Below are positions 25,465-64,000 of a stretch of DNA of 64,000 nucleotides, in pieces (the stretch's first letter is position 1; every line of letters starts with the position of its first letter). The stretch comes from Asparagopsis taxiformis. Taxonomy: Eukaryota > Rhodophyta > Florideophyceae > Bonnemaisoniales > Bonnemaisoniaceae. The notes beneath the pieces were generated by a model, which saw nothing but the letters and a program-made list of their open reading frames with translations, was not told the origin of the DNA and made no database searches. Both the position numbers and the translations under genes were made by a program. The stretch covers positions 110,116 to 174,115 of the forward strand of contig JALQPE010002294.1 of the NCBI GenBank assembly GCA_030407315.1, in the 5' to 3' direction.

Positions 25465-25574
25465 TGACGAACAACTTACTACTTACAGTGCTTACAGCTA
25501 TATCTTGCTCCCTTTATAACTTGACCGTCGTCGACAACAACCGTCAATAAACGAGATCATAGATTATCTTCACA
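25465..25574 (+). repeat. Copia B 3' LTR
   Basis: 110 bp, same as the 5' LTR. Its first 13 bases (TGACGAACAACTT) also occur 55 bp earlier at 25410-25422, overlapping the pol stop codon, which may mark an alternative plus-strand priming boundary or a former LTR start. The five bases after it (CGCCG) complete the target duplication. Confidence 0.95.
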
Positions 25575-25579
25575 CGCCG

Positions 25580-34152: not shown

Positions 34153-34506
34153 CTTTGCGACAATTTGCTATTATCACGCGCAAAAAATTCTTCCACCGTA
34201 GCAACGTACAACTCATTGAACCCCCTACTTCCTTTCAGTAGAATCTTTTGACAGCCCAAATTCCACTGGACGATCTCCCGTTCAGCAATGATATGGCGTC
34301 TAATTTGCAAAATGGTAGCAATAACCACATGTCTTGTCCAGTCGAGTTTCGTCGGCAACAATGACTTCATGAAGCTGATAACTTTTCGTCAAATCTGTAA
34401 ACATCATCAATCTGCCATAAGCTCTAAAGTACGTATCGACTCTCTCCTGAAAGGGAAACGCTCATTCCCATCATCCCTGAGTAAACTCCTCATTTCCCAA
34501 ACAAAA

Positions 34507-44614: not shown

Positions 44615-44616
44615 GA

Positions 44617-46064
44617 GATGCTCAAATATTCACCACATTGGATTGTAATTCTGGCTATTGGCAGATACCTGTTGCACAGGACGACCGTGACAAAACGGCA
44701 TTCACCTCCCATTTGGGGACATATCGCTTTAAGCGTTTGCCCTTTGGCTTGAAGAATGCTCCGGCAACGTTTCAGCGTGCCATCGACATTATTCTTAGCA
44801 GCGTTCGCTGGCAGACCTGTCTGATTTACTTAGACGATGTAATCGTATTCTCTCGGGACGAGGCCGAACATCTCCACCATGTGGACCAAGTACTCTCCCT
44901 CCTGCGGGAAGCAGGTGTCACCCTGAAGTTGACAAAGTGTCATTTCTTCGAAAAGAAGGTTGATTACCTGGGGCATGTCGTGATGCCAGGAAAGCTAGCT
45001 GTTGCACAGAACGCCACTTCGGCTATCGCTGACGCGATCTTTCCGCAAACGCCTACGCAAATGCGATCCTTCCTCGGAAGCTGTGGCGTCTTTCGACGGT
45101 TCATCAAAGGGTATGCCGCAATTGCGCACCCTTGAACGAAATGCTGACCAAAGACAGCCTCCCTGAATTCGGGAAAGAACCTCCTACCGAGGACCAACGA
45201 CGCGCGTTCAACGCTCTCAAGGAGGTCATGACCAAGCCGCCGATACTGGCTCTACCCAAGTTGGGTCAACCCTACACCGTAGACACGGACGCTTCCGCAT
45301 ACCAAATAGGATGCGCTCTGCTTCAGCAGCAAGGGGAAGAGAACCATCTCAAGCCAATTGGCTATTGGTCGCGGACCTTGACTAAACCTGAAAGAGGTTA
45401 CTCCCCTACGGAGCGTGAATGTCTAGCCGTCGTATGGGCTGTCACTATCCTACGTCCATACTTGGAGCAAACAAAGTTTGTAGTCCGGACGGACCATAAC
45501 GCGCTGCGTTGGCTCATGAATATCAACGACCCTTCAGGGAGACTATGCCGATGGCGCCTCCGACTTGCGGAATTTGACTATCAAATAGTCTACCGACCCG
45601 GTCGGGTTCACCAACTACCAGACGCCCTTTCGCGTGTTGAAACTAACGGCGAGACGCCCGCCACTATTGACGATGAAATACCAACTCTGTTGGCCACGCA
45701 CGCACCGCAAGGTGAAACATCCTTGGATGATGATACTAATGTTTGGTTCTACGACCTTTCTCTAGCAAGAGACCACGCCGAGGAGGCGCCTAATCGCGAC
45801 GGTACACCCGTCTTGACAACTCATCCGCAAACGGAAAACTACTACCCGATAACTCTCCAAGAGTGGCTCGAAGAGCAAAGAACCGACGACTTCTGCCAAC
45901 AGGCCCTGGCCTCGCAGAAGTCTGACTCTCTCTTCTTCGAAGATGAAGACGGTGTCCTTTGTAGGAAGTCCAGACTGGATGGGTCATCCCAAATCGTAGT
46001 ACCTAAAGCCTTACGGCAACGTCTATTGACGATGTGCCACCACGGCATATTAGCAGGACATCCT
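44617..46064 (+). CDS. Gypsy pol part 2: reverse transcriptase, RNase H, start of integrase (frameshifted)
   Basis: First segment to 45131: RT palm (FTTLDCNSGYWQIPV, TYRFKRLPFGLKNAPATFQR, CLIYLDDVIVFSRDE) and thumb (KCHFFEKKVDYLGHVV). At about 45131 the frame shifts by one base (IAHP stop, then LNEMLTKDSLPEF in the next frame). Second segment: RNase H (YTVDTDASAYQIGCALLQQQ, SPTERECLAVVWAV, FVVRTDHNALRWL, RVHQLPDALSRV) and the H2C2 integrase zinc region, cut off at 46064 by the inverted LTR. Chain termination and truncation make this copy inactive. Confidence 0.9.
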
Positions 46065-46723
46065 TGTAGTAGGTAGAAAATCCGCAAAGCGGCAAAACCA
46101 CCCTACAGGTGTCCCGAGCCTCGGTAGTGTGGTAGAGCAAGCGAATCTTGCGTCAACCGCCAATAGCGAGTATACCCCGAAAGGTCTGCCGGTAATACCG
46201 GGTGAAGGTTGGGGGGTGCTCACGCACGAAGTGCGTATTGATGGAGCGAAAGACGTAACCCGTCGAGCTGTATAGCTAAAGCTAATTCGTCCTAGAAGGA
46301 TAGAAAAGAGCGATGCAAACACTGTTCAGTGGAGTCGTAAATTCCACGTGAGTTTACGTTACCTCTAAAGGTTAAGCACTCTGGGTAATCCAGAGGCATT
46401 TTATACTAAACTAAGTTACTATAAACAGTTAGGGTAGGTAGACAGTTAGGAATAAATATCCTTATGTGCACCAATCAGATCCCTGATTATGGCGACTGCG
46501 GGAGCCCGCGAGATCACCGACTGTTAGTGTTACAGTGTAAAGTTAGCTGAGTCAGCTTAGTTAAAATTTGCCCCTTGTGGGGTCTTTAGTTGTCCCAATG
46601 GGTCCCTCTCCCTCACTGGTCTGAGGTACAACGAGGCTGTTTCCATTGGTTATTCCCGAACCGGGGTCGTCCAATAGGATGTCGACACGACCCCACCAGG
46701 GCAGACCACTCCGTGGTATGACA
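46065..46723 (-). repeat. Inverted gypsy LTR (659 bp) with adjoining polypurine tract
   Basis: The reverse complement aligns along its length with the LTR at 39700-40383. On the minus strand it starts TGTCATACCACGG and ends CTACCTACTACA. Directly upstream on that strand is the purine tract AGGAGGGGGCGA (46724-46735), as expected for a 3' LTR, so the rest of that element would lie to the right (46724 onward). No target duplication was found (ATCCT left, no match right), and no partner LTR is visible to 64 kb. Confidence 0.85.
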
Positions 46724-47813
46724 TCGCCCCCTCCTAAGCCAATTGTCGTCCCGACAATTAAAATTCCAAAAATCCGTTGATTTTAAATTCCCAAATAATT
46801 TCCACCGCCGTGGCCGGCCAGCCGGGTAAAAATTTTGCGCGCCAAAAATTGGCTGTTATATTTACCCGTGCACACGGTTCCACCCCGAGCCTCGCTCATC
46901 CATCTGACTCACGACACTTCGGGTTTCTTCATCCTCTTCCCCGGCACTGCCGTGTTTTCCATCCCGCCGTTCCGGATTGCGAAGCGATCGCCTGCCTGGC
47001 GATTTGAATTCCGTACCTTTCGGTAGCTTGCTTGCGTGATACGCGACCTTTCTTGCGTTAAGGGTAACACCCGCTTTGCGTATTTTAGGTGTCCCTTCGG
47101 GTTTCAAGAAAAAGGCTCACGCCTGCTGCGACCGTACGGCTTGTCCGTTGATTTCTTCTTTGGCGATCACTAACTCCAGTGGAGTGTATATAAGGGCGGG
47201 AGATCATCAGCATGGCTGCACACGGTAACAGCCCACAAGGCAACATGCCTCCTCGTTCAACCCGGGCGTCTTCTCGCCGACCAACAACACGCCACCAGGC
47301 GTCGCGCGCGAATGCGACTCCGGCTACGCCGTCAACAAACCTGTGGAACCACGTTAGTTCTAGAAGTAGCTGGTACGAGCCACGGACACGCTGTCCTCAA
47401 CGAAACGAAACGAACAGTCCACCCGCTGGTGTTTGACTGTATTGTTAGAACGGTAGAAGGTAGAGTGGTTAGCGAGTAGACACGAGCGTCACGACGCAAC
47501 AATCCACGCGAGGATTACGTTAGCACACGAGGTGGTACGTCACCGGAGGCGCTCTCGACCAAGCCCGGAGGCACTACACGCAATCAGCCTTACGTGCGGC
47601 GATGGGTAGGGAGTACGCAGCTCGACGGAGACGAAGCCTCGTTAGGCCAAAACGTAAACGTAAACGTAGAAGTCAGTCGTAGACTAGAGCCGTTGCTCGA
47701 TCGTTGTCTTGTCCCCTTTCCCTCCCGGCACGATGCCAATACCTATATGGCCACGATGGCATCGCTTTACAGTGTAAACACTCACTACGGTGTTGAAAAG
47801 GGGGCCTCAGACA
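46724..47813. other. Region right of the inverted gypsy LTR
   Basis: It may be 3' internal sequence of the inverted gypsy element, but I recognise no gypsy domain. A TATATAAG box at 47187 lies 25 bp before an ATG opening a 74-codon frame (47212-47436) rich in Ser, Arg, Thr and Pro (MAAHGNSPQGNMPPRS); this could be a decayed gag start or chance. I see no other gene. Confidence 0.4.
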
Positions 47814-48010
47814 GTACTGCGAGACAGTGATTTTTACTGTCTGAGACAGTAAAAATCACTATGCGGCAAATGAAAATTAATGCCACACTTGGAGACAGTG
47901 ATTTGCACTGTCTGGCAGACAGTACGGAACACTGTCTGCAGACAGTAAAAAACACTGTCTCACAGTACTGTCTGAGGCAGTGAATGGAGACAGTAAAAAT
48001 TAATGATTTA
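47814..48010. repeat. Irregular cluster of ACAGT/ACTGT palindromes
   Basis: Includes a perfect 35-base palindrome at 47826-47860 (arms AGTGATTTTTACTGTCT, one-base centre) and several shorter inverted pairs of GACAGT/ACTGTC up to 48000. The motif recurs in the ordered tandem array that follows. Confidence 0.75.
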
Positions 48011-48145
48011 TTCAATAGTTGGATATGATGTAATTTACTGTACTGGGCAGTGTTGGCGGATAGTGTTTTGTATTGGCCAAGGCAACATGGCCGGATAGTG
48101 AAATACGCTGCCTGGGACAATAGATGGAACCAACACGGTGCACTG

Positions 48146-48555
48146 TCCTGGGCAGTACCTGGAGACAGTGATTTTCACTGTCCTGGGCAGTACCTGGAGA
48201 CAGTGATTTTCACTGTCCTGGGCAGTACCTGGAGACAGTGATTTTCACTGTCCTGGGCAGTACCTGTAGACAGTACTTTGTGCTGCCCTGGGCAGTACCT
48301 GTAGACAGTACTTTGTGCTGCCCTGGGCAGCACCTGTAGACAGTACTTTGTGCTGCCCTGGGCAGCACCTGTAGACAGTACTTTGTGCTGCCCTGGGCAG
48401 CACCTGTAGACAGTATTTCGTGCTGCCCTGGGCAGCACCTGGAGACAGTATTTCGTGCTGCCCTGGGCAGCACCTGGAGACAGTATTTCGTGCTGCCCTG
48501 GGCAGCACCTGGAGACAGTATTTCGTGCTGCCCTGGGCAGCACCTGGAGACAGTA
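48146..48555. repeat. 35-bp palindromic minisatellite (11.7 units)
   Basis: Unit starts are 48146, 48181, 48216 and so on every 35 bp to 48531. Early units contain ACAGTGATTTTCACTGT; later ones contain GTGCTGCCCTGGGCAGCAC, a palindrome with a one-base centre. Unit sequence drifts in steps along the array, and both halves of the palindrome change together. The minus-strand open frame across it is a by-product of the 35-bp period (three units make 35 codons). Confidence 0.92.
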
Positions 48556-48585
48556 AAAGTAGTGTCCTGATATAGTAAAATTCGG

Positions 48586-50356
48586 TGTCTGGGAGTGGTG
48601 GATGAGATGGAGCGTCACGCTGTCGTGGGCATCTTTCTGGGGTAGAGGAAGGCAGTTCTAGCGCTATGAGGATGGGGCATGGACGGTATTCATATGGGAA
48701 TGGACAGAATAGTACGGCTAGGAATTTTTATTTCGTAGTGACTATGAGCTAGCGAGAGGTATACGCGGTAGGATAGGTAGCAATCTAAGAGGGTGCGATA
48801 TGGGAAGCTTCACTCTGGATTTGTTTATTTGCGCAGGCTACATTGAGAATAAACAATCCCTATGTTAAAAATGCTACTACAACTAACACTATTCCGACGA
48901 GTAAAACTAAAACTACTAGAAAAGTCTAGAAATCTATCAACTGATTGAGCTGCATGAATAAGCTAGGAAATGAAGAGAAGAAGAAAAAATGATGTAGAGA
49001 AAGGAAACAAGTTAGTGACGTTGAATTGGAGAGGGAAATTGATGGTGATTAGGAGACTAACGTACCTTAACAAATACCATTGCATCCCAAATTGAGATAT
49101 GTACTCACAGGCAGAAAAGAAAATTAGTGGAGAAGTGGTAAGAGAGAAAGATAAATGAAAGTAGAATTGGAACACTCACCGACTGGAAACCTGAGAAAGA
49201 GAAAACGAATAGAAAACTGGGTTAGTGGCGTGAGTTGTGGAAACGTACCATCATGGTTCATATCCGTCGGAGACAAAGCAACAACTTTGGCCTTGGGAGC
49301 CGTATTGATGATCTAAAACTTACGCTTTGGAAGCAGTTTAGATGATCTATACGGCTTCCACGGCCAGGGTTGTTGCTTTGCTTCCGACGGATATGAAGAT
49401 GGAAACAGGGATCTCCAGAATCTGTTGTTTAAGTAGCACTCTGCGGGCGGAAATGACGTGTACTCTAACAATAGAGGGATGAATTTGAAACGGAGCGGTG
49501 CGATGGGAGGCCCAGAAAAACGATACCTAGGGTGCGAATTACGCTTTGAAGCACATGACCTGGCAGAACAGGCGCAAAATTATTGTATCTTCTACCGCCT
49601 TCTCTAGTCTATAATGACGTCATCACTACAGAAATATAGGAAAAACACTAGCATATCGGGCCTACTGGAAAGGGGGAGGCGAGGAGTAGGAAAAATGGCG
49701 CACTTTCCTGGACGAGGAGTCCGCGCTTCCAGTGATGATTTGGACGGTATATATCGATGACGTCATTGCATGCTCTGAGCACACTTGGCAGGCAGTCAAA
49801 GCGGGCCACGTGGATGTGGGCGGCTAGGAAACAGCAGTGTGGGAGAAATTTTATAATTTTCATGTTGCAAGCGAGCAGTGAATCTGCATTGCAATATATA
49901 AATTTATGCTAATTTAAGATATCACACCGAGTACGATTCAACGAGAGATTGTGCTTTCAACTTGTAAATAGGGCCGAAAATGGTAGAGTATACGAGTAGG
50001 AAGTACGTGTATGAGAAAATCAGATTCAGTATTAGTGCCTAGAGCATCACTGCGAAATAAACGGCCGTTTTCCGGAAATGGATACATCTTGGCTGGGTTT
50101 GTGGTTAGGGGATGCGATACAAGATAGCAAAACGATGTTGAGTCCGGATGAAATAGCAATCAATGTGCATAAAGCAATGAGCATAGGGCAAAGCATTGTG
50201 GTGAACCAGTTCATTGGATCGAATGAAAGCCTGGAAAGGTTTCGTAACGGTTAAAAGTAGTAGTACTGTATTGAGATAGTAGTCATGTCATAGAAGTTTA
50301 GAGTTGTATTCTATGCCACAAAACTGAGCGAAGAAGAAAAGAACAAAAACATCAAG
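48586..50356. other. Non-coding region upstream of the Tnp2-like gene
   Basis: Holds the 141-bp foldback repeat at 49257-49397 and otherwise unremarkable AT-rich sequence. It should include the promoter of the gene at 50357; no clear TATA box seen. Confidence 0.5.
49257..49397. repeat. MITE-like foldback repeat
   Basis: Arms of about 48 bases start TTCATATCCGTCGG and end with its complement at 49397; they are roughly 85-90 percent complementary. A second, inner inverted pair (GATGATCTAAAAC / GTTTAGATGATC) extends the stem, so almost the whole 141 bp can fold. No clear target duplication. Confidence 0.75.
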
Positions 50357-53300
50357 ATGGCTCCGAGACGGACTCCTATTCGAAAGAAAACCACAAGTCG
50401 TAGGACAAAGGCGAGATTCGATTCACTCAATGTGGCCAGTCCCAGTAAACAGCTTCCTGGGAAACTGCAGGGAGAAATCCGCAGCAGTGATGCAGCCTGC
50501 ATGAACAAAGAAATCCCGAGAGGTAATGAGCTACGACGTGAGTGTACCACAGATGACCTATTGGAGTCCCCAATCCCTATGGGTGACACAATAGAAGGTT
50601 GTATTGATGTGTACAGCAACAACGATGAAGCTGGAAGTGACATCTACGTAGCATCGAGCACGCTAATGGAATCGGAAGAAGCAACCGGACGAGGTTCTGA
50701 TTCCATTTCAACTGGAGGCCCGATAGACCGAAATGCTGGGGATGAAGCATGTGGTGATTTCAAGGCATTACTACAATGGCCTGCGATGTATGGGGCTCTT
50801 CAGCTGAGTGGAACTCAAAGAATGACAAGAGCCCACTATGAAGGTACCCTGTTCGGAATGAATTTCCGCAGAGATCCAAGTGAGCACGTCCCGTCGGACT
50901 CTGTGATGCGACAGAAGATACTACCATTCTTGAGGAAACATTGCTATGCAAAGAGCTGTGACATCGAGTTTCCGATAGACCTTCGAAAGAGCGGAGCAAG
51001 AGCTGCACAGCATCGAGGTGCAGTAGGAACCCGTGGAACAACAGATGACAGAGACAATTGTGGAGGAATGGCGAAAGTTCGTATTGTACTCCCAAGCACA
51101 TGGGCTCTGAAAGATGTCCAGACTCGACCAATCTTTAAAGCATTCCGCAGTGATGCGAACAATCGAAGCTCGGAAGGAGAAAAATCAACCGCAGAGTGCA
51201 GCATTGAAGATTCGTTCATTGCAAAGTGCAGGAGGGGTGTTTTGAGCGACCCATTCGTTCGCACAGCAGTTGTTCCCATTGACAGCGATGGGAAAAAGGG
51301 TTTGAAGCACATTTATGTACCTGATGGAACAGCAATTCGAATCCGATGTCATCCAGGAGCTCGTCAGGTTGCCGTCATCGAAAGAGCAAAAGGGTTCAGG
51401 AAGAATGACAGAGATGGTGGGAAACCGAAGAGGAGAAGAGTGGCGGTTACGTCGTTGTGGGAACTTCATGCTAGGACCATAGTTACCTATGAGGCTCGAC
51501 ACGACGGTGAGCATGATGTGCATGTCGAAAAATATCTGCAGCCGCGAATGTCACATCTATTGGAATGGGAGAGGCAGCATGCTCTGCGAGCGATATCGCA
51601 ATGTGTAATCGGAGCAGGAGCCAAGGGAAAAGGAACACGAGCTGGGGACGTGATAACCGTTCTATTACCAATTGGAATGGAAGAGGGTGATATTGTTCCA
51701 CACGTCGTATTGGTGAACAGGTATTTGAAAGAGCAGGTCGGAGAAGCATCCACCATGTTACTTTGCTTTTCACCGGGCGCGAGCTTTGCTGAAGCCAGAA
51801 ACCCGCCCGATAGACTAGGAAGCCCCAACTATGAAGAAATTCGTGTTTCAGGGGTGTTCTCGGATGGTTTCGGAGACCACAGGTCGCAATGGCACCCAGC
51901 GTCTCCGCGAGAAGATGCACCATGTTGGGGAAAGCTGGAGGATGGTCGAAACTACTTTGTTTACCGATTTCTCCTTTACACGGATGACTTTGAACCATTC
52001 ACAAGCAGGAAGGGAAGTTTTGGTGGATGCTATATGTTACCTCTCAATCTACCGCCTCGGAAAAGGGGAAGCTACCAAGCGGTTCGAGTGATTGGTTTGC
52101 CACCTCCGGGAGTGTCCACAAATTGTGTATTGCGATATATCGTTCAAGATATAGTGCGAGGAAGCACAGAGGGTTTCCCAACGAAAAATGCAGAGGGAGA
52201 AGATATTGTGGTATTTCTAGACCCAGTGGGGAGCATTGGAGACTATCCTGCAGTTTCACATACCCTGGATGTTCTTGGACACACATCAAACTCTCCGTGC
52301 CACATCTGCAGTTTCCGCAAATATGACCTGAGCAGTACTGGTGGCACGAAGAATGCATACACTTCGGTAGTGAACGGGCAAACATCGACGCATGCCAGGA
52401 GCAAGTATCGGAATGCATCGACACGTAAGGATGCCACAGAAACCCAGCTTCGCACTCTCGGACTGGCTGCAGAAGAAGGGGAAGATTTACCATTTCATGT
52501 CCTGAGCACTTCCTTGGAAGCAGTGCAGGAAGAAGTACCGAAGACGGAAAACGGAGTTTCAGTTGTCCCAGCAATTTTTGACCCGTACCGTTCCGCAGTG
52601 ATAGCACCTGACCATCTATTGTCTGGACTGGCACAAGATGTACTGAACGCTTGTATTTCAGCTGCCAGCCCACGAATTCGAGAGGTAGCTGAATTGCAAA
52701 TTCTGGGCGCTCTGAAGAAGTTCAGGATGGGAAGGCAGAACCGTTTATTTGGAACCAACAATCTGCTTTCCATGAACATGAGTGACATATTCAGTGTGCT
52801 TCTGATAGCACCTATGGCATTCGAAAACGCAGCTCGAATGATGGATGGGAAAGGGGAAGGTCATCGTGAAAAATTTGATGGGGCCGTCAAACTAGTAGTG
52901 ATGTTTCAGAAGCTGGTTTCGTGTATTAGTTTCATGCCCGTATGGTGGAAAGACGGTCCCCATGAAGTAGAGACGGCTGACGGAGAAGGTGGCAGGAATG
53001 AATACATTCTGGGAAGAACTGTAGACTACGTGGAGACGTTGAATGAGTATTGTCGGAAAGTGAAGGGAGCAGGAGCACATTTGGACAAGCCTAATGTTCA
53101 TCGTCTTGTCGAGTTTTGTGTTCATACGCTTCCTGCCTACGGCTCTGTGAAGCACGTGCAGGAGCTTATATTCGAACGGATGCATCAGCCGCTGAAGAAA
53201 GGTGTGAGAATGTCCAATCACCAAAGCGAACAGCTTTCAGCGCTGGAATTAGTTCTTGCGGATGACTGGCAGACGAGAGTGGCCATTGTTTTGCGCGAAA

Positions 53301-54160
53301 TCGGCATGGAGCCACAACATTGGTCCTCGTCCGAATGCTCTCAAATGGTCAACGTTCTTTCACAGGAGCTAGGGAGAGAAATAGATGTGGAAGACGAGGT
53401 AGTGAAAAACTGCTTCCAGGAACCGGTTCTCCAGCTTCTCTCCCAGCGTCGAGGAAAGATATTGTCGGCGGATGGTGAAATTGTGACGTGGAGAGGGCAT
53501 GGAGGTATATCTATTGACGAGGTCAAGGAGTACATGAATGGAAAATGTGATATGGCAGAGGGTGCTGTAGGTGTTTTCAAACGGTTCTTTACCGAAAGGT
53601 ACGGAAGCGGAACAAGCGGGTGTGGAAAGTATGCCGAATGGGTGAGAAGAGTTTCTAGAAGCACTACGACAGAGTGGGGAAGGAAAACAGTGCAGAGGTC
53701 TGGCTCTCTAGAATCAGGAGCTATCATCCATGCTGTTTGCCCTGAACAGATGAAATGTGAGGATGGTGCAACTTCACAAGCGATTCTGTACCCGGCGTCT
53801 CGTCTCACATCAGAGATAATGCGGGGAAGAATTAATTATGAACCGCGGTTTTTTATTGTTCTAGCGTTCTTTATCCTGAGGAACGAGAGTGCGAGAGATG
53901 AGCAAGGTACAGCTTATGGAGTTTGCCTGGGTTTGCGAAAAACTGATGAAGGAGTGTTCAAGGTCGAAGAGAGGCGACGAACAGTAATTGTGGAGATGAG
54001 TGAGGGAGTCACTGAGGTGTTTGGTATGCACTATTGCAATGGGAGTGTATGCGAATATGATGAGAACATGAGGGAGGTAAGGCACGGACCCGGACTGCTG
54101 GAGGGTGGAGAGATATATGCACTATGTAGGCGAGACGGATTTCCACCGAGGGCTGCATGA
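50357..54160 (+). CDS. Tnp2/CACTA-like DDE transposase (large intronless ORF)
   Basis: 1267 residues. The N-terminal 200 are basic and Ser-rich. The core resembles the Transposase_21/Tnp2 and Plavaka group: LYTDDFEPF (D543/D544) followed by YMLPLNLPPRKRG; then FLDPVGSIGDYPAVSHTLDV (D622, D629) with the typical CHIC zinc pair near 647-650, and APDHLLSGLAQDVL near 757, matching the position where the family has its D/E-H motif. The C-terminal 450 residues are helical with VKHVQELIFERMHQPLK. The frame is open throughout, so it may be active or domesticated. I saw no CACTA-type ends. Its neighbours on the same strand are the ParB/dioxygenase genes, separated by palindrome arrays. Family call is from motifs and is moderately sure. 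Confidence 0.6.
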   Translation: MAPRRTPIRKKTTSRRTKARFDSLNVASPSKQLPGKLQGEIRSSDAACMNKEIPRGNELRRECTTDDLLESPIPMGDTIEGCIDVYSNNDEAGSDIYVASSTLMESEEATGRGSDSISTGGPIDRNAGDEACGDFKALLQWPAMYGALQLSGTQRMTRAHYEGTLFGMNFRRDPSEHVPSDSVMRQKILPFLRKHCYAKSCDIEFPIDLRKSGARAAQHRGAVGTRGTTDDRDNCGGMAKVRIVLPSTWALKDVQTRPIFKAFRSDANNRSSEGEKSTAECSIEDSFIAKCRRGVLSDPFVRTAVVPIDSDGKKGLKHIYVPDGTAIRIRCHPGARQVAVIERAKGFRKNDRDGGKPKRRRVAVTSLWELHARTIVTYEARHDGEHDVHVEKYLQPRMSHLLEWERQHALRAISQCVIGAGAKGKGTRAGDVITVLLPIGMEEGDIVPHVVLVNRYLKEQVGEASTMLLCFSPGASFAEARNPPDRLGSPNYEEIRVSGVFSDGFGDHRSQWHPASPREDAPCWGKLEDGRNYFVYRFLLYTDDFEPFTSRKGSFGGCYMLPLNLPPRKRGSYQAVRVIGLPPPGVSTNCVLRYIVQDIVRGSTEGFPTKNAEGEDIVVFLDPVGSIGDYPAVSHTLDVLGHTSNSPCHICSFRKYDLSSTGGTKNAYTSVVNGQTSTHARSKYRNASTRKDATETQLRTLGLAAEEGEDLPFHVLSTSLEAVQEEVPKTENGVSVVPAIFDPYRSAVIAPDHLLSGLAQDVLNACISAASPRIREVAELQILGALKKFRMGRQNRLFGTNNLLSMNMSDIFSVLLIAPMAFENAARMMDGKGEGHREKFDGAVKLVVMFQKLVSCISFMPVWWKDGPHEVETADGEGGRNEYILGRTVDYVETLNEYCRKVKGAGAHLDKPNVHRLVEFCVHTLPAYGSVKHVQELIFERMHQPLKKGVRMSNHQSEQLSALELVLADDWQTRVAIVLREIGMEPQHWSSSECSQMVNVLSQELGREIDVEDEVVKNCFQEPVLQLLSQRRGKILSADGEIVTWRGHGGISIDEVKEYMNGKCDMAEGAVGVFKRFFTERYGSGTSGCGKYAEWVRRVSRSTTTEWGRKTVQRSGSLESGAIIHAVCPEQMKCEDGATSQAILYPASRLTSEIMRGRINYEPRFFIVLAFFILRNESARDEQGTAYGVCLGLRKTDEGVFKVEERRRTVIVEMSEGVTEVFGMHYCNGSVCEYDENMREVRHGPGLLEGGEIYALCRRDGFPPRAA

Positions 54161-55494
54161 TTTTTAGGGAAGAATAAAATGAATAACCAGATGCATCACA
54201 TATGAATTGTACACTCTAGGGCGGTGGTGGATTGGTGCAAAGTAGTGGGGAGAGGATCTGAGAGGATGGAGGGAGGTATGCTTACAGCAAAGTCATCGTT
54301 ACGATGACTTTGCTGTAAGAAAACGTTTCCATTACAGTGGCCAAGAATGTTTTACCGGGTAAAAAAATCGTGGCAGCTGTAATGATTTGCTTTCTTACAG
54401 CAAAGTCATCGTAACGATGACTTTGCTGTAAGGAACCGTTTCCTTGCAGTGGCCGAAGTTTTTTTCACCGGGTAAAAAATCAGCAAGAAATTTTACCGGG
54501 TAAAAAAATTGTGGCCGCTGTAATGATTTGCTTTCTTACAGCAAAGTCATCGTTACGATGACTTTGCTGTAAGAAAACGTTTCATTACAGCGGCCACAAT
54601 TTTTTACCCGGTAAAGAAATCATGGCTACTGTAATGTTTTCTTTTCTTACAGCAAAGTCATCGTAACGATGACTTTGCTGTAAGAAAACGTTTCATTACA
54701 GCGGCCACAATTTTTTTACCCGGTAAAGAAATCATGGCTGCTGTAATGTTTTCTTTCTTACAGCAAAGTCATCGTAACGATGACTTTGCTGTAAGAAAAC
54801 GTTTCATTACAGCAAATTCATCGATAGTTAAGGTTAAGTAACCAACTTTAGGATGTCCAGAGGACCTGCTCGTTGTAAGGAATAAGGAATATTGATCAAC
54901 TGACGAAGAGGAAGCATTTTGAATCGACTAGGGTAGGAACGCAATGAGATTTGGTATGCAAGAAAACTGAATCGCAGTAGTGAATAGGTAGTTGAAATGA
55001 ATTCATATTGATGTTCTTTGGTGTATTGTCCATTGGAGCACATTGAAAACCATTTATATGATCACCGTTTAAATAGTCTATGAATCCTTTGCAGCCGAGT
55101 ACGCCAATAGGAAGAAATTCAAGCAGTGGCCTGCACGGGAACCGTTCATTTGTGAGTAGCAAAAGTTAGTGTAGAAATGAATTTTTCAGACTTGTAGGAG
55201 AGGTGGATCGTAGTAAATGTATAAAACTCACGTAGAATCGATTGATAGGAATCAATGGTACGGAAGAAGAAGCGAGGTGGAGAGTGTGGATGAAATAGGT
55301 TGTTGGAATATGAATGATAATTGACGTGGTGAGGTAAACGGGTTCGATTGCATTATATGCGCTAGAGGTACATACTATTAGGTGTAGATTGATGGAAAGG
55401 GCTAAACGCTTTGTGGAGGTATCAGGATCAGGTAGAGTCAGAGGTGCTGAGCGGGTGCAGCGTAAGGTTCATCAGGACTGAACGTAGGTAGGGA
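54161..55494. other. Intergenic region with palindrome cluster 1
   Basis: Palindromes fill 54281-54810 (separate entry). The remaining 680 bp to the ParB/dioxygenase gene has no other recognisable gene and should hold its promoter. Confidence 0.6.
54281..54810. repeat. Palindrome cluster 1 (five P1, four P2)
   Basis: P1 is a 39-base perfect palindrome with arms CTTACAGCAAAGTCATCGT around one A/T: copies at 54281-54319, 54394-54432, 54535-54573, 54646-54684, 54757-54795. Between them sits P2, about 55 bp, centred on TTTACCCGGTAAA with outer arms CATTACAGCGGCCA / TGGCCGCTGTAATG (for example 54330-54384). P1 plus P2 makes a unit of about 111 bp (113, 141, 111, 111 bp start-to-start). Both palindromes share TTACAG...CTGTAA ends. 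The centre of P1 alternates between A and T, that is, either strand orientation. Confidence 0.95.
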
Positions 55495-58400
55495 ATGTCT
55501 TGTCCGGACAGTATAAGAGAGGAAGCTGAGAGACGGGAAGCGCACTCGGAGGTACCACAATTGTGGATTTCATCGTCTACACAACATTTGAACAGAGAAC
55601 CGATTGAACGAACTGAGATTGCAGGGATTACAATGGGAGACAATAGTATCATGAATACTACAGCGGAGAAGAGCAATTCTCCTTCTGCTGAAGAGAAAAG
55701 CATCACTATTGCTCAGTACAGCTCTTCTAAAGTGCAAGTTGATCCTCGCAAAGTGAAATTTCCGACAGTGACCTCCCGTTTGGTGCGACCGGGTCGTGTA
55801 AACGAACTGGCCAGCATTTTCATGGATAGAGGTTTCTCTACCACTGGAACTATGATTACAGTCTGCAAAATGGAAGATAACGAAGGAGACGAGTTTTACT
55901 GCATCGATGGCTCTCATCGCATAGCTGCTCTGCAACTATGCCTGGAGAAGTACTCAGGAAAGAACAGGGATTCCTTGGAATTGGTTTGGGTACAACAGTT
56001 GATTGCGCCGAACGGGCGTCTAATTTTCGATGCGCTGGAGGTTCTGAAACTGTCTCTCGAAGCCAATATACAAACTCACGATGTCGCTTCTGTGAGCATT
56101 GCCGACAATGTCTGTGCGGTCATAGAGTTTCTCAGGTTTTCCAACCAGATGGATCTTCCTGTTGTCCGGCTTATTCCTATTCTGAAAGAAGTGAGCTATA
56201 TTCTGCCGTCCGACAGGAACCGTTCGGAGAACTCGTATAGGCAGTACATCAACATTGCGAAGGGGTTCAATCGCACAGACAGCGTTGCTTTCGTGTACTG
56301 GAGCTCTATCCCTAGCGTTTACAATGCTTTGGATAGGAACAGAGAAATCGAGGATGCAAGAACCGAGGGAAGAGATCCGGACTTTTCTCGAATTGACTCT
56401 GCCGATATGTACGGGTGCGTGCTCGATCTTGTCAATAACGCAATATTCCGCAATGGCACGGACGGACGCGGGACGCGCGATAAGGAGTGGTTCCAGTGGT
56501 TTGTGCTCGAGATGACAGCGTCGTGGACAAGGATGAGGAGGAAGAGAGGACTTGTCAGAAATATCGGAAGCGGAAGTCCGTTCACGATGCGCACTTGGCT
56601 ACTGGCTCTGTTGGCCATCTATGATATGGCAGAGGTCGTCCGCAAGTGGTTGAACTCTGCAACGATGGAGGAATTCGTGCGAACGGATTTGGCAGCAGAA
56701 AACGCGAAGGAGGTCGGGGATAATGATCATCGCATTGGAGAGCGCATTGTATTCGTCCTTGTCGACTTTCATGACGACGTGGTAGACAGTAGCAGTCTGA
56801 GAACCAAGAACGGGATGTTTACAAACAGTTTTTACGACAAACTGGAATATGCTACCGGGACAAAGGCAATGCAGGAGACGAAAGCGGAGGAGGAGAGGGA
56901 ACGGAATCGCATGACCCCCGGAGAAATAGAAAAAGCACTTGTTGATGGCGCCAAAGCAGAAGACGAAGAAGCACCTACTGCCGCAGAACAGGGAAATAAT
57001 TCTACAGAGAAGGAAACTGTGGAAACTTCTGGTCCTGTTCAAGCAGAAGAAGGAGTATCTGCCGAAGCCCAAGCAGAGCAGGAAGTTTCTGCTGTTGTGG
57101 AGGAAGAACAGGAAATTACTCCAAATGTGGTGGCTGAAGAAGTGATTCCTGCTGTCGCGACGAAAGCAATAGAAGAGGCACCTCTGAGCACCCCGAAAGA
57201 AGCAGAAGACCGTCCTGCCGCAGCAAAAGAGGGAGGACAGGAACGTCCTGCCACGCGTCTTGCAGCAGCTGAGAAGAGGGAAGCAGAACGTCTTGCTGTT
57301 CTCCAAAAAGAACAGGAACGTCTTTCAGCTTCAAGGGCAGAGCGGGAAAGTCGTGCCAGGGATAATTCGCCGGGAAGGATTGTCAGAGAAGATCTTCCTC
57401 AGGGAAGGAAACAAAGCGGCGATACGCAAAGTCTGGATATCAACTTGGACAATAGTGGTCGCATGGACATAGACACGCCTGGACAACAAGCTGGAGATGC
57501 GCAGAACCGCTCTGTGATATTGAAACTTCGAATCAGGACACCAGAAACTTACAGCACTAGCCCGGCCGAAGTGGACAAGGAGAATTCGGGAAGAAGCAGG
57601 AGTTCTGGTGGAAGCGGCGATGAAAACGAGTCCAGGTTGCATAAGAAGCGAAGAAGGGAAGATACTAGCGCGAAGTTTTCTGAGCCCAATACGCCGGATG
57701 ACAACATTGAGATTGGGCCTCCCCGGGAAAAGAAGAGTAGAGTCAATGCAAGAAAACGAACGACTGGAGAAGAAGCACCACTCTTCACTGACGAGCAAGA
57801 AAACTCCCTTCCAGACCGCACATTCGCAGAGGACATACCTGAGAAGCTGCCTTTATGCGTTCCTTCCAACTCGAGAATGAAGTATTATATCACAGAAGAA
57901 GACATTGATACAATCCGGACGGAGATAATGGAAGCAGCTGCAGGCTACTCTACTTTGGTATGTCCCCTCGGTTCTTGTGAAAGCCAACAATACTTCAGCT
58001 ACCAGAGAAGAATGATCGACGAGCTTGGTTACGTGGTGTTGCAAGACATTTTCTCTTCTACTACAGTGGGAGCAGCTACGCACGAGTTATTCACACAGAT
58101 GGCCAGCACATTCCAAGGTACTACAAGTGGCTCAAGTGCAAGTCAGAAGAACCCGTGGAAACCACTTCGACCGAAAGACAGCACTGGTGTATTCAAGACG
58201 GACCGGAAAAGCATCTGCGATGACCTTGAGCAAGAAAGCGCGCGGCAGTACAGGAACAAGCTGATTCTGGAGCTAGGTAAGGCGATTTGTGCGGAGAACC
58301 TGAAGCTCGGGTTTGGAAGAGAAGAAGCGGTGGTCTTTCCAGAAACGGGTCTTCGTCTGATTTTGACCGCAGAAGGTAGTCAGGAGCAACTTATGCATAC

Positions 58401-58755
58401 CGATGTTCCCGTCCGTGAGGGAACTGGAACTGGTCCTCTCAACTCGCCATCATATTTCATGATGGCTGCTGGTGCGGATGGGTTCATCATTCGTATCGCC
58501 AAGTTCAGCCATGTGTGCCTAAGTCATCCAGCGAAAGAAAAGTACCGCGTGCCAGTGACGAACGTGCGCATCCCACCGTATTCCCTGCTTGTATGCCGAA
58601 CGGACGTGTATCACGGAGGAATGGGATTCGCGGAGGGTCGTTCTTCGGTGAGGTACCAGCATCCTATCCGGTCCCATCTATCACTGCGAACTTCCAGGGA
58701 GAAGTTGCTACAGCCTCCCTTCAATGTCAACTACTGGGAGCGTTTAGATATCTGA
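55495..58755 (+). CDS. ParB/sulfiredoxin-fold plus Fe(II)/2-oxoglutarate dioxygenase-like fusion protein
   Basis: 1086 residues, intact, intronless. Residues about 78-160 resemble ParB/Srx: basic FP..TSRLVRPGRVNELASIF, GFSTTGTMITV, and the signature DGSHRIAAL (D138-H141-R142), like the DG/GxHR motif of ParB and sulfiredoxin. A helical domain follows (to about 450; SVSIADNVCAVIEFLRF). Residues about 460-770 are low-complexity Glu/Ala-rich with basic nuclear-signal-like clusters (HKKRRRED, REKKSRVNARKR). The C-terminal 250 residues look like a double-stranded beta-helix dioxygenase: HTD (H968, D970), H1040 in DVYHGGMGF and R1053 in SVRYQHP, the HxD..H..R pattern for Fe(II) and 2-oxoglutarate. 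Start ATG 55495; ATG 55633 is possible. Palindrome arrays lie on both sides. Substrate unknown; a DNA- or chromatin-linked oxidase is inference. Confidence 0.7.
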   Translation: MSCPDSIREEAERREAHSEVPQLWISSSTQHLNREPIERTEIAGITMGDNSIMNTTAEKSNSPSAEEKSITIAQYSSSKVQVDPRKVKFPTVTSRLVRPGRVNELASIFMDRGFSTTGTMITVCKMEDNEGDEFYCIDGSHRIAALQLCLEKYSGKNRDSLELVWVQQLIAPNGRLIFDALEVLKLSLEANIQTHDVASVSIADNVCAVIEFLRFSNQMDLPVVRLIPILKEVSYILPSDRNRSENSYRQYINIAKGFNRTDSVAFVYWSSIPSVYNALDRNREIEDARTEGRDPDFSRIDSADMYGCVLDLVNNAIFRNGTDGRGTRDKEWFQWFVLEMTASWTRMRRKRGLVRNIGSGSPFTMRTWLLALLAIYDMAEVVRKWLNSATMEEFVRTDLAAENAKEVGDNDHRIGERIVFVLVDFHDDVVDSSSLRTKNGMFTNSFYDKLEYATGTKAMQETKAEEERERNRMTPGEIEKALVDGAKAEDEEAPTAAEQGNNSTEKETVETSGPVQAEEGVSAEAQAEQEVSAVVEEEQEITPNVVAEEVIPAVATKAIEEAPLSTPKEAEDRPAAAKEGGQERPATRLAAAEKREAERLAVLQKEQERLSASRAERESRARDNSPGRIVREDLPQGRKQSGDTQSLDINLDNSGRMDIDTPGQQAGDAQNRSVILKLRIRTPETYSTSPAEVDKENSGRSRSSGGSGDENESRLHKKRRREDTSAKFSEPNTPDDNIEIGPPREKKSRVNARKRTTGEEAPLFTDEQENSLPDRTFAEDIPEKLPLCVPSNSRMKYYITEEDIDTIRTEIMEAAAGYSTLVCPLGSCESQQYFSYQRRMIDELGYVVLQDIFSSTTVGAATHELFTQMASTFQGTTSGSSASQKNPWKPLRPKDSTGVFKTDRKSICDDLEQESARQYRNKLILELGKAICAENLKLGFGREEAVVFPETGLRLILTAEGSQEQLMHTDVPVREGTGTGPLNSPSYFMMAAGADGFIIRIAKFSHVCLSHPAKEKYRVPVTNVRIPPYSLLVCRTDVYHGGMGFAEGRSSVRYQHPIRSHLSLRTSREKLLQPPFNVNYWERLDI

Positions 58756-59005
58756 TGAAATTAGTTCTTAATAGCATTCTATGGCAGGCATCAAGGCCGC
58801 CTTCAAGTAAACGATGAAAGTTAGGCTAGTACATGACGTTTGCGTATGTAGACGGGTCGAGAGATATACAATACTCAATTTAATATGAGAAGGGGAGGAA
58901 ACTATGGTGGGCACTACTAGAATAGAACAAGGTAATATCGCAGTCGTCTTTGGTTACAACATTGAGGTGAGGAAGGCTTACAGATGATGCAGTTTCGCTG
59001 GGGTG

Positions 59006-59233
59006 CTGACAGCAAAGTCATCGTTACGATGACTTTGCTGTAATGATTTGATTTCTTACAGCAAAGTCATCGTAACGATGACTTTGCTGTAAGAAATCAA
59101 ATCATTACAGCGGCCACAATTTTTTACCGGGTAAAAAATTCTTGCTGATTTTTTTACCCGGTAAAATTTTCTCACCACTGTAATCAAACCTTTCCTTACA
59201 GCAAAGTCATCGTAACGATGACTTTGCTGTAAG
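59006..59233. repeat. Palindrome cluster 2 (three P1, P2 between)
   Basis: P1 copies at about 59006-59044 (left edge CTGACAGC, one change), 59055-59093 and 59195-59233; a P2-type block with two TTTACC..GGTAAA centres at 59103-59184. It lies 250 bp after the stop of the intact ParB/dioxygenase gene. Confidence 0.93.
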
Positions 59234-59832
59234 CATCCCGGGTAAACGGCTTCGGCTGTAAGCGGTTGGGAGTTTCGTCCGTCTCCCACCCTGGGAAGGG
59301 TGAGAAGGGAAGTGTGGAGCCGGGAACATCGTACAACGATGGTTTGGACGACTGTTGACGGCTCTGGGGAGCACTCTGCGTCGTGCAAGCCTGGTTTGCG
59401 CTGGCTGCACTACCTGGTATTGAACGGTTCTGTGCGCAAAGTTTACTCATGAAGGAGTTAGGGTGTTGTGTACCACACCAACCATAGTTACTAACATTTG
59501 CAGTGTACTCTAGTGATGTAATTATTATTCTAGTTTCTAGCTATACAATGATATTAAGTAAGTCAGATGTGCACAGAGCATGGTCTAAGCCTAGCACGGT
59601 AGAGAAAGATGGAAGAAAGATTGAAGGGTAGGCATGCAGAGGTATGAAGGCAGCAGTATGTGTAGACTATGGCAGTGGTAAGAAAATATTTCATGCACCA
59701 AAGGGTGGGTAGAGTGACATTAGAGAGGTGGTGTGTAGGGGGAAGGTAGGTGGAGATGATGAAGGAGGACAACAGAAACGAGAGCGAGGGTTGAGACCAA
59801 CGGCTTACAGATGGAGCAGTTTACCAGGGATG

Positions 59833-60095
59833 CTTACAGCAAAGTCATCGTTACGATGACTTTGCTGTAAGGAAAGGTTTCATTACAGTGGCCATGATTT
59901 CTTTACCCGGTAAAAAAATTCCTGGCCGCTGTAATGAAAACGTTTTCTTACAGCAAAGTCATCGTAACGATGACTTTGCTGTCAGGAACAAAACATTACA
60001 GTGGCCATGATTTCTTTACCGGTAAAAAATTCCTGGCCTCTGTAATGAAACGTTTCCTTACAGCAAAGTCATCGTAACGATGGCTTTGCTGTAAG
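59833..60095. repeat. Palindrome cluster 3 (three P1, two P2)
   Basis: P1 at 59833-59871, 59947-59985 (right end GTCAG, one change) and 60057-60095 (GGCTTTG, one change); P2 at 59881-59935 and about 59993-60046. It ends about 235 bp before ATG 60329 of the second ParB/dioxygenase gene. Substitutions in P1 here are on one arm only. Confidence 0.93.
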
Positions 60096-60328
60096 GATCC
60101 TTGGTAAACTGCCTGAGCTGTAATTGTCGTACAACGAAAAGTGATGTGGAAGGTTCGGATTGGTCAACCGCTGAATATCATTACCAGGGTGTATACTAAT
60201 AGGAATATGTCAGATCTCTAAGTTTCGCCTATCTTACTCAGCTTACGCAGCAAAACAGCTTGTCGTTCAGATCTTCTTCTCTCTTTCTCAATCTTTCACT
60301 CTTCGTTTGTCAATCACTCACCAAAGCA

Positions 60329-63300
60329 ATGGCTCAACAATCCCCCAACGCTTTCGACCGCCAGGTGCGCTCTGCCAGCCGCCGTGACAACGATTCTCCC
60401 ACTCCTTCTCCCTCTCCTTCTCCCTCTCCTTCTCCTTCTCTGGCCCCCCCTGTCCCCATGGACGTTTGCGAAGCTGCTGCAGCGCTGACCCAGCTCAGCC
60501 CAGCACCTAAGCCCGTCCCCTCCCCCCCTTCCGCTTCCGATCCCGCGGTTGTCCCGACAATCGACGCTGGCGTTCCCGCAACTCCGCTTCCGGCTCAATC
60601 TGCCGAAGCGGCGCCAGCCGTCGAGGGATCTGGTGCTCCTCTGCCCAGCTCGCCTGCTCCGGACATGATCATCGCGTCCGGCAGCGACTTGGCAGAGGAT
60701 GCGGAGAAGGTCGATGATCACAACGCTCGTGACATCGTACCGAACAAGCCTCTCCGCAGCACCAGGCTGGCCTACCCTGGCACAGTGCCCATCCCGGTGG
60801 ATGTGGACTACGACATAAGTCCGGAGAGCTGCCGAAACATTCCAGTCTTCATTTCCCCCCTGGATGTTTCTCCTCCGGCAGTCGTGTCCAGGGTGGTCAG
60901 GCCGCATCGCGTTGATGAGTTGAAGAAAACGTTTCTCACTCAGGGATTTTCCGTGATTGCTTCACGCGTGTCCGTCTGCGAGGTGATTGATTCCAATGCA
61001 AAAGTACGACTGCAATATGTCGATGGATCTCACCGAGTGACCGCGTTGAAGGCCATTCTCGAGTCGGCTGGACCTGCTCCTGCGAAGGACAGTCCAGAGT
61101 GGGAGGAGTTTGTCAAGTCTGACATCTACCGTCGCTTTGGAACTATTCCAGTCGACTTTCTCCTCCCACCGACTCGGCTTGGCCGGGATGTCTTCTGCTC
61201 CGAAGAAGTACTCCCGCTTTCACGGCTGATGAACTTCCACACCCACAATGTCAGCGAGGTAACAGTTGCTGACAATGTGTGCTCTGTGATGGAGTTCATC
61301 AATATCCACCGCCTGGGAAAGAAGAAGATCGAGCCGACCGTTCAATACATAAAGAACGGAAAGCGCTGAGCTGGATTCGTCCGAGACAGCTCATGCGCTA
61401 CGTCTCGATCGCGCGAGGGTTCAAGACCATTGAAAGCCCTGCTTTCAAATACTGGTCGAGCATCCCGAACAGGCCGGAGTTCGTGCAATTTTCTTCCACA
61501 GAGGATCTGGCTGGGTGTACGGTGAACTTGTTGTTCAATGGGTCGTTCAGGAGTGCTCCGGATGTGCAGAAGTGTTTCATCCTGGAGATGACGGCGCGCT
61601 ACACTTGTAGCCGTCGGTCGGCCGGGCTGAAACCGTACTCGGTTGGTACCATTGGGCAGGAATGGATTGCTGGTTTGTTGGAAATCTTCGGGTACGTGAA
61701 GGAGGTGGCCGAGTACTGGAACGTGTCGGATGTGTTGAGGATGCTGGATGGGTCAATTCCCAGCCGGGTGACCCGAGCAAGAGCTTCGACATTCGCTCGC
61801 GCGTTGTCGAAGTTCTTGCTCAGATGGTCCCCAAGAAGGGGTGCTGGGCAGACTTCCGTCCCAAGGAAGGCCCCCCCGATGGTTACAGTTACGAAAATAT
61901 TTTTCCCCGTAAGAAGTCTGTCTTCGGGAAGGACGCCAGGAAAATGCTCCTGCGCGTCACTGGGTACCGCGACATGCAATGCGGAAACGCTTTCACGCGA
62001 TGTACCCAGACATCCCACATGCTGCGCTCCCAGCCACATGTGGTGATGATGCCCCCATCCCTTCCTCTTCCAATTCCTTGCCCATCCCTTCATCCTCCAT
62101 TCCTTTGCCCCCACCACCTCAACTGGAATCTTCCAGCAATTCCGAGGTTGCCCCTGTTCCTGTCTCTACCCCTGCCGTGTCTGCATCCTCCCCTGCGGTG
62201 ACCCCGGTCAAGCCGACTGCGCGTGGTCCCCAGGATGGCAGCGAACGCTCTGGTCCAGTTTCCCACGCCGGGACTGGTACCCCCAACCGTCCTGTCCAAG
62301 CCGCGCAGGAGCAGGTCTCACCGGCTTCGCAGCCTGAGCCTGCGACTCCGGCTGCCGAGCAGCACCCTGCTGCTCCGGCCCCCGCTGTCGAAGCTTCCCG
62401 TTCTGCATCTGCTAGCAGTTCGGGAAGCTCCAGCGATGACAGCTTCGTCCCTTCACCATCCGGTGGGGTTGGACAGAAGACGGTTGCGAGGATTTCGACG
62501 GAGGGCCCTACTCCCGAGAATGTGGTCGAGGGCAGCAGTGCGAAGGGCGGTGCAGATCCTGACGAACTTCGTCATCTTGAAGATGTCATTGAAGTCAGTG
62601 ATTCTGCACCGCCCGGAGTGGAAACTTCTGGGAGGAAAGTGATGCCCAGAAGGAGTACCCGCCTGCAAGCGAGTCGTTCCGGTCGTGGTGGAACGGCGGG
62701 TGGTGCTGTGGAGGTCGTCGAGCTGGAGAGCGCCCCCGAGGATGCGGGTGAAAACTCCATCCTCGGGAAGCGTAACTTGGAAGCCGCTTCTGCGACGCCC
62801 GAGCCTTCTACCAAAAAGAGAAGGCTCGGTGAGACTTCATCAAAGTCGTCGTCAAAGAAATCCAAGTCGGCTTCCCGAGGTCGCTCTCGGGAGCCGGTTC
62901 TCCAGTTCGACGACGCCCAGGAGAATCCCATTCCCGACAGCATCGTCGATGAGAATGTGGCCGCCGTTCTCCCCAGCGCAATTGCGTCTGGCAGCCGGAT
63001 GAAGTACTATATGGAAAGTACGACGGTGGAGACGGTTCGGGCGGAAATGAGGGCGGCAGCATTCCAGGCAGCTGCATCGCCGGGTGCTGAGGATACGGTG
63101 GTGGACAGGTACTTTGCGGTGAGAAGGCATTGTTGGAAAACTTGGGGGTTATTGTTATGGAGGCCTGTTGGCATCGTCCACGGCTGGTAATGCGACGCAT
63201 GAGTTGTTCGGTCACTTCGCTAGGCAGTTCCCGCTGGTTGAGGAGGTTGAAAAACCTCCCAGCAGTCTGATTCTAACGATGACGACAGGGAGCCACAGGA

Positions 63301-63981
63301 CGAGCCGCCAGCTTTCGCAAAGCCCGGCTTCGATCCTTCGCCGTGGCAGTTCATCCACAACGTGGGTGATGCGAGGGACCGCATCGATGGTGGTCGTGGG
63401 CGCCTCTCTCTGCCGCGGCGTGAGTTGTGCGACAAGTTGGAGGAGGGGAATTTGGAGATGTATAAGAACAAGTTGGTGGCAGAGCTTGCTCTTGGTGTTT
63501 GTGCGGAGTTCTTGAAGTTGGGAATGGAGGGTGAGGATCCTGTCTTCTTCCCGAAGACAGGATTGCGGCTGCTTCTTACAGCAGATGGGGCTGCGGACCA
63601 GATGGGCACACGGACTTCAAGGTAGCGACGAATAGTGTTGGAAGTCCTACCACGTCTCCATCATATTTCATGATGTCGAGCGGAGCCGATGGGTTCTCTA
63701 TAGTAGTTGCCCCTTATAGTCATGTATGCCTGGCCAGTCCGGGCGCCGATATGTGGAAGGTTCCCCCTCTCATCTTTTGGGTGCCACCTATTCCGTATTG
63801 GGGTCGCGGTGACCTTTACCATTACGGGGTCGGCTTCAGCCGAGGAGATCTTCCTGCAGGCGAGAAGTTAGTCTATGGCCTGCCCACGCGCGGCCACATC
63901 TACTTGAAGACGGAGAAGGACGTCCTCACGGACCACATCCACACCGTCGAATATTACAAGTACGATAGGAGCAATAGATAG
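60329..63981 (+). pseudogene. Second ParB/dioxygenase gene copy, multiply frameshifted
   Basis: Start ATG 60329 (MAQQSPNAFDRQ) after a CT-rich leader; a PS repeat lies at about 60399-60440. ParB-like motif DGSHRVTAL near 61022 and SEVTVADNVCSVMEFI near 61255 align with the first gene. The frame then slips at about 61362, 61775, 61980, 63130, 63165, 63260 and 63610, while homology continues with no gap large enough for an intron. The last part has HTDF, then SYFMMSSGADGFSI and LYHYGVGFSRG, so iron-ligand residues remain; but the Arg seen in the first copy (VRYQHP) is replaced (VYGLP). It is GC-richer and Pro/Ser/Ala-richer than copy 1. Many single-base shifts mean either a pseudogene or uncorrected sequencing indels. 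Confidence 0.65.
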
Positions 63982-64000
63982 CATATCAGAAGTATTAAAA

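Follow-up and report, generated by a model that had tools for sequence, protein, structure and literature searches.

A giant CACTA/EnSpm-type transposon of the red alga Asparagopsis taxiformis carries a gene for a ParB-like protein with a putative Fe(II)/2-oxoglutarate oxygenase domain

The window analyzed here is a stretch of 64,000 nucleotides from the red alga Asparagopsis taxiformis, whose end is also the end of its contig (JALQPE010002294.1; 174,115 bases). It contains an ATG-start open reading frame (ORF; positions 55495..58755, + strand) for protein A, a protein of 1086 aa in which a ParB-like part is followed by a charged linker and a putative Fe(II)/2-oxoglutarate (2OG) oxygenase domain. 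It is near certain that gene A is cargo of a recently active giant DNA transposon of the CACTA/EnSpm type. The left ~16.2 kb of this element occupy the window from 47783 to 64000 (+ strand) and the remainder lies beyond the contig end. The meaning of protein A shifts with this result from that of a host chromatin oxidase to that of an enzyme that a transposon carries as an accessory, within a matched set.

Gene A is carried by a giant transposon present in many copies

The genome searched was the window's own assembly (141,494,207 bases in 3,156 contigs). Gene A was found there full-length, stop-free and at ~100% identity in at least 42 places, the window included; these were scored among 5,134 candidates and are the best-scoring places rather than a fair sample of all copies. 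Thirty loci were returned, 18 of which (window included) align with the window unbroken over the whole 6.26 kb and 12 partly or in several pieces. To the left, the homology of three further copies begins at window position 47,782/47,783 in all three flanks, at the boundary sequence CACTACGG. The 5' terminal inverted repeat CACTACGGTGTTG starts at this point (47783..47795, +), and the same sequence, inverted, forms the 3' end of two complete copies. In one of the three further copies, that on contig C2146, a separate match of 86.5% to window 47,367-47,780 lies ~870 bases outside the element end. Inside the boundary, a repeat search and motif positions delimited subterminal repeats made of ~35-bp units (GACAGTG/CACTGTC; 47809..48596).

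The two complete copies, on contigs C632 (26,511 bp) and C1569 (26,546 bp), carry the same inverted terminus at each end and show 99.95% identity to each other over 26 kb. Directly after the 3' end of the C1569 copy (L038) comes a 4.6-kb piece of this element in inverted orientation, either an adjacent copy that is itself inverted or an artefact of the assembly. The 32-bp 5' terminus is found 869 times in exact form in the genome and a 34-position pattern of the 3' terminus 671 times, compared to 0 for the reversed-pattern controls. Termini paired by hand were mostly separated by ~24.5-27 kb (C44, C74, C168, C221) or by ~14.4-15.8 kb (for example C19, C104, C117, C192, C228, C21); other lengths included 8.4 kb (C59) and 19.3 kb (C64). 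The shorter class has the same termini (for example C19:12359-26803, C104:62353-76797, C192:84430-98883), and one stretch of this class, C10:63817-78888, holds palindromes of the kind described below.

The element was classified as CACTA/EnSpm-type because of its termini and target duplications. Its terminal inverted repeats begin with CACTA/CACTG, and a duplication within the 2-3 bp range of the class, here of 2 bp, was seen in 7 of 12 copies (6 of 10 hand-chosen copies and C1569, not C632; 1/16 expected for each). The probable transposase of this type (50357..54160, +; 1267 aa), encoded by the same ORF in both complete copies, has no Pfam match; its motifs 'PCHIC' and 'FER..LKK' may resemble those of such transposases. 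A KDZ transposase was also considered for this protein and was rejected, as the CACTA termini argue otherwise.

In the coordinates of the C632 element, the transposase gene (2749-6552, +) is followed by gene A (7888-11148, +), by a homologue termed gene B (12725-16372, +) and by the gene of an 1155-aa protein on the opposite strand (18465-21932, -). This protein combines an N-terminal ParB-like stretch with N6_N4_Mtase (E 1.5e-16) and SET (E 2.9e-6) domains recognized by Pfam, and its methylase part matches DpnA structures (E 0.0015) and phage adenine methylases. Its frame is intact in C632 and C1569; the longest minus-strand frame in the C2146 stretch is 900 aa. Two further ORFs complete the set: orf453 (22446-23807, +; L037:1301-2662), which has no Pfam match, and orf508 (24083-25609, -; L037:2938-4464), with Pfam matches below the cut-offs only. 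One of the two starts with residues that may conceivably adopt a chromatin-reader-like fold.

Conserved domains of protein A and its homologues

The ORF of protein A is exactly the one reported in a preliminary description of this DNA, and openness by chance is far shorter, reaching at most 166 codons in 200 mononucleotide shuffles of positions 54200-59800. The landmarks named in that description were also located where it had placed them: the motif DGSHRIAAL at residues 138-146, the residues H968, D970, H1040 and R1053, and a charged linker with nuclear-signal-like clusters, which carries KKRRR. Full-length protein A gave two matches in Pfam, both below the cut-offs (SNRNP27, E 0.012; DUF2275, E 0.89), and no match among PDB sequences; searches for relatives in viral contigs and in genome contigs gave nothing useful.

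Two homologues were identified. A tblastn search of the window with protein A revealed gene B (60329..63981, +), again predicted to combine a ParB-like part with a putative 2OG oxygenase domain, in a frame-broken copy at the contig end; intact B, of 1215 aa, is encoded at the same element position in C632 (L034:1580-5227). With a degenerate pattern designed to miss the codons used in A and B, 312 further sites were found in the genome, and 62 of the 100 listed share a distinct codon set when counted by eye. Copies from these sites yielded the third homologue, X, with an intact frame of 1174 aa (L044:175-3696) and a layout like that of A and B. Among four copies of X, the frame is open at full length in two, 14 residues short in one and broken in one. 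Two further codon-excluding patterns, with which more homologue families were sought, gave 0 sites and 10 sites, the latter A-like (5) or B-like (5). PDB sequence searches with A, B and X, and tblastn searches of phages and plasmids, returned no useful relative.

Protein A is 31-33% identical to B and to X over the whole protein and 39-42% identical in the C-terminal domain. The three proteins keep two conserved blocks around a variable linker, and the ParB-like part together with the central block (residues 80-390) is conserved in all of them. In five aligned blocks of A and B, the proportion of synonymous differences (pS, 0.65-0.88, with synonymous sites near saturation) exceeds that of nonsynonymous differences (pN, 0.39-0.46), and the A and B lineages have therefore evolved under amino-acid constraint.

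The C-terminal domain conserved in A, B and X (residues 785-1086 of A; 57847..58752, +) contains a set of invariant residues expected of an Fe(II)/2OG oxygenase. H968-T-D970 (58396..58404, +) would provide two of the Fe(II) ligands, and H1040, within R-x-D-x-Y-H (58612..58614, +), is the candidate for the third; the preliminary description had named these same three residues, all of them invariant in A, B and X. It had also included R1053 in the set. At position 1053, A has R, B has V and X has Q; this residue is not conserved, and we reject it as the 2OG arginine. R1059 (58669..58671, +), within P-x-R-x-H, is invariant. The 2OG arginine is therefore probably R1059. H1061 of the same motif is invariant as well. 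The spacings of the H, D, H and R residues fit an Fe(II)/2OG oxygenase, and the segment 'GYVVLQDIFSS' may resemble the start of PhyH-like oxygenases. From the invariant HTD, H and R, an Fe(II)/2OG oxygenase is plausible, and we judge this assignment probable.

The N-terminal domain of A (residues 80-213, including IDGSHRIAAL; 55732..56133, +), conserved in A, B and X, is likely a module of the ParB/sulfiredoxin (Srx) type. All its profile matches are weak: for protein A, PHROG 1033 'ParB-like partition protein' (E 0.0033), GmrSD_N (0.052) and DndB (0.091); for X, the SerK model (0.016) and DndB (0.11). The N-terminal part of the methylase protein matches PHROG 1033 (E 9.4e-4) and three other ParB PHROGs (0.056-0.26), and the GmrSD_N and DndB matches range from 0.05 to 0.24 among the ParB-like proteins. 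Since the weak matches to DNA-partition, SerK, DndB and GmrSD families agree with each other, a single superfamily is favoured, that of the ParB/Srx fold common to the named families. These concordant matches in A and X lend support to the N-terminal ParB/Srx-superfamily domain that had been proposed from the sequence. Unnamed PHROGs score higher than ParB for both protein A (E 0.0014) and the methylase protein (E 7.9e-7), and SNRNP27 (E 0.002) and other scattered matches of the N-terminal domain disagree with the ParB superfamily. PF02195 matched none of A, B, X and the methylase protein. A profile made from the 3-row alignment found no ParB structure among PDB sequences, the best matches being unrelated and at E 0.5 or worse.

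Palindrome arrays, methylation context and possible roles of protein A

Repeat and motif searches revealed arrays of palindromes around gene A. Upstream of it, five copies of the 31-bp palindrome CAGCAAAGTCATCGTNACGATGACTTTGCTG are interleaved with a second palindrome, around TTTACCSGGTAAA, with which they alternate (54281..54813); the gap between A and B holds three palindromes in a first part (58976..59265) and three in a second (59801..60127), one of the latter with 1 mismatch. With an exact pattern in which only the middle base is free, the 31-bp palindrome occurs 8,355 times in the genome compared to 0 for the reversed pattern. The 11 sites of the window (the mismatched one included) all lie within the element, where 0 were expected in the window. 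Each complete copy has 17 exact palindromes. In C632, all 17 are in the three gaps that separate the genes of the transposase, A, B and the methylase (5, 5 and 7), and the other four non-coding stretches hold 0. A search for the palindrome in viral contigs gave nothing useful. Three separate small foldback insertions were rejected as the source of the arrays, which recur in register in both complete copies. A ParB-type module beside palindrome arrays recalls ParB/parS.

The genome was also searched for enzymes of DNA methylation, in six frames with no intron handling, in an assembly that may be incomplete and has some bacterial contamination (the contig C1526, with bacterial plasmid ParA/ParB-type genes at L039:1339-2187, is probably a contaminant). 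No match to a C5-DNA methylase (PF00145, E<=1e-3) was found. Tet_JBP (PF12851) matched none of A, B and X, nor did it match anything else in the genome at E<=1; control genomes gave one result, below the cut-off, so the sensitivity of this search is low or uncertain. With neither a Tet_JBP match nor a C5-methylase match in the genome, a place of the C-terminal domain in the TET/JBP group, one of those mentioned in the preliminary description, is not supported, and we reject TET/JBP membership on the absence of a Tet_JBP match. N6_N4_Mtase had at least 150 scored matches among 2,605 candidates. These fall into several score groups, many of them genes with long ORFs, which suggests that several families in the genome carry amino-methylases of their own. 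The observed/expected ratio of CpG is 0.86 in the element part of the window and 0.90 in the rest. Because of the missing C5-methylase and Tet_JBP matches, the many N6/N4 matches and the CpG ratios, amino-methyl DNA marks or histone marks are favoured over 5-methylcytosine.

We propose that protein A is addressed to the element by its ParB-like part and there erases or modifies amino-methyl marks on DNA (or histone marks). The ParB/Srx-like module would recruit the protein, probably to the palindromes arrayed between the genes. The C-terminal domain, as an Fe(II)/2OG oxygenase, would enable A, and B where it is intact, to oxidise methyl marks on the DNA or chromatin of the element, which would thereby be removed or remodelled. 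The marks would most likely be N6-methyladenine (6mA) or N4-methylcytosine (4mC), and could be written by the ParB-like/amino-methyltransferase/SET protein that the element itself encodes or by other N6/N4 methylases of the genome. The element would thereby carry a writer and erasers for its own copies and could escape silencing or time its expression and transposition. The ParB-addressed DNA or chromatin oxidase envisaged in the preliminary description fits this setting; that description had missed that the gene is transposon cargo, and one of two such genes beside that of a ParB-like N6/N4-methylase/SET protein. Taken as a whole, we judge the proposal to stand at even chances.

Several observations weigh against it. 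The C-terminal domain has no meaningful match in Pfam, PHROGs, NCBIfam, PDB sequences, phages or plasmids, and none to the profile of any 2OG family in the first four of these. AlphaFold predictions of this domain, made with shallow alignments of 5 and 3 rows, reached a mean predicted local distance difference test score (pLDDT) of 36.7 and 31.1 and did not confirm the beta-rich C-terminal fold that had been described. Homologue B has no match to any ParB family in the profile searches that gave those of A and X. Its frame is intact in only one of six copies (C632) and broken in the window, C2146, C1569, C158 and C123, by decay or by assembly indels, both being possible; a second working oxygenase is therefore doubtful for most copies of the element. 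The intact C632 frame, alone among the six, does rule out B as a pseudogene everywhere. The 2-bp duplication is absent in 5 of the 12 copies, and the six-frame PF00145 search could miss an intron-split gene or a gene absent from the assembly. As for the arrays, palindromes are missing from the gap that adjoins the start of the ParB-like methylase gene (21933-22445 in C632), the arrays could be nested foldback repeats by origin, and we infer their binding by the ParB-like module from analogy.

A stronger form of the proposal involves all three ParB-like proteins of the element. They would recognise parS-like palindromes in the intergenic gaps, one writing amino-methyl DNA and histone marks and two erasing or oxidising them, so that hundreds of dispersed copies would share a private epigenetic state apart from that of the host. 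We consider this form tentative and, on present evidence, rather unlikely.

Slightly less probable still is that A acts as an accessory of transposition, a TNPA-like DNA-binding protein that organises the element through the palindromes and whose C-terminal domain is not an active oxygenase. The conservation of residues 80-390 across A, B and X, the arrays that adjoin A and B, the missing oxygenase profile match and the frequent breakage of B all agree with such a role. It does not account for HTD, H and R being invariant in C-terminal domains that are otherwise so divergent from that of A, the palindromes are internal rather than subterminal, and the third ParB-like protein bears methylase and SET domains.

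The substrate may also differ from the one proposed. 2OG oxygenases include histone demethylases, and the enzyme could act on chromatin proteins, for example on histone methyl-lysine, to counter the SET domain of the element or silencing marks of the host. The SET domain in the partner protein and a genome with no C5-methylase match are in line with this; the same partner protein has a strong DNA amino-methylase domain and no JmjC profile match was obtained, which makes a chromatin-protein target unlikely. Alternatively, the oxygenase could produce a hypermodified base instead of removing a methyl mark, and so protect or label the element in the manner of JBP or of the TET/JBP enzymes of phages. 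Base hypermodification by 2OG enzymes has precedents (PMC12730594), but no glycosyltransferase was recognized on the element, where orf453 has no Pfam match and orf508 none above the curated cut-off, and together with the missing Tet_JBP match this leaves hypermodification improbable. Lastly, gene A could be a host gene for a chromatin oxidase that only happens to have transposons around it, a reading close to the earlier view. This would suit an intact long ORF with nuclear-signal-like clusters but is ruled out for practical purposes, since near-identical copies occupy 42 different loci and belong to a unit that has transposon termini and duplications.

The remainder of the window (1-47782) is a dense nest of other transposons. 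It includes Copia-type elements at 6218-9756 (-, by eye), 21138-24737 (+) and 37310-39727 (+) (the latter two by Pfam), Ty3-type fragments (40461-46076, +), a piggyBac-type transposase (DDE_Tnp_1_7; 10918-13107), a DDE_1 transposase (25937-27586), a weak tyrosine-recombinase match (32349-33716, -) and a DUF7869 protein (1956-4088). Two clearly related proteins of ~520 aa, which contain membrane-like segments and match nothing significantly in Pfam, are encoded at 14299-15852 (-) and 34288-35853 (+). Elsewhere in the genome, contig C469 holds 11 of the 13 matches to phycobilisome families, spread over 10 reading frames; together with a transposon-rich genome of 141 Mb, this very probably indicates a red alga.

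Relation to known mobile elements and ParB-fold proteins

The preliminary description knew of no described protein with the layout of A. None was found among the papers listed in literature searches for a ParB/2OG-oxygenase fusion, which did not cover the red-algal work of Petroll et al. (2025). The two halves of the idea are each on record in transposon genes, with methylases in algae and TET/JBP oxygenases in fungi. PMC12477816 cites a study of red algae (Petroll et al. 2025, Curr Biol) for giant EnSpm elements that carry accessory genes; as cited, these agree with the element described here in host group, element class and the presence of accessory genes. That study may already describe genes of this element. 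ParB is not mentioned in the accessible parts of PMC12695648 and PMC12502185.

Fusions of the ParB-CTPase fold with enzyme domains particular to certain lineages are frequent on mobile elements and include N6_N4 methylases in phages; the commonest eukaryotic member is sulfiredoxin (PMC12704722, main text). Protein A differs from these fusions in its putative enzyme domain; neither 'dioxygenase' nor 'oxoglutarate' occurs in that main text. In fungi, TET/JBP dioxygenases are carried by KDZ, EnSpm, Plavaka, hAT and other transposons (PMC12730594). As proposed for the present element, these are DNA oxygenases borne by transposons, thought to counter silencing based on methylation; in contrast to it, ParB is not mentioned in that article, and the present case shows no Tet_JBP or C5-methylase match.

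If the proposal is true, the combination of oxygenases, a DNA/histone methylase, ParB-like modules and palindromes would amount to a mobile element that brings its own writer, erasers and addresses. The gene set makes a writer/eraser role and palindrome addressing testable as hypotheses. It also opens to testing how 6mA/4mC might be laid down and removed in a eukaryote for which no C5-methylase was detected and in whose genome nearly identical copies of the element abound.

The closest comparison is with the ParB-methylase fusions described in algal transposons, which have been proposed to bind their own element and to modify it epigenetically. In both cases a ParB-like module is joined to a base-modifying enzyme, putatively so in A, on a giant algal DNA transposon, and the present element also encodes a protein of the ParB-methylase type, with its ParB-like, N6_N4_Mtase and SET parts. 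It differs from the described transposons in that A and B would have as their enzymatic part an Fe(II)/2OG oxygenase acting as eraser or modifier, encoded beside the methylase and accompanied by palindrome arrays.

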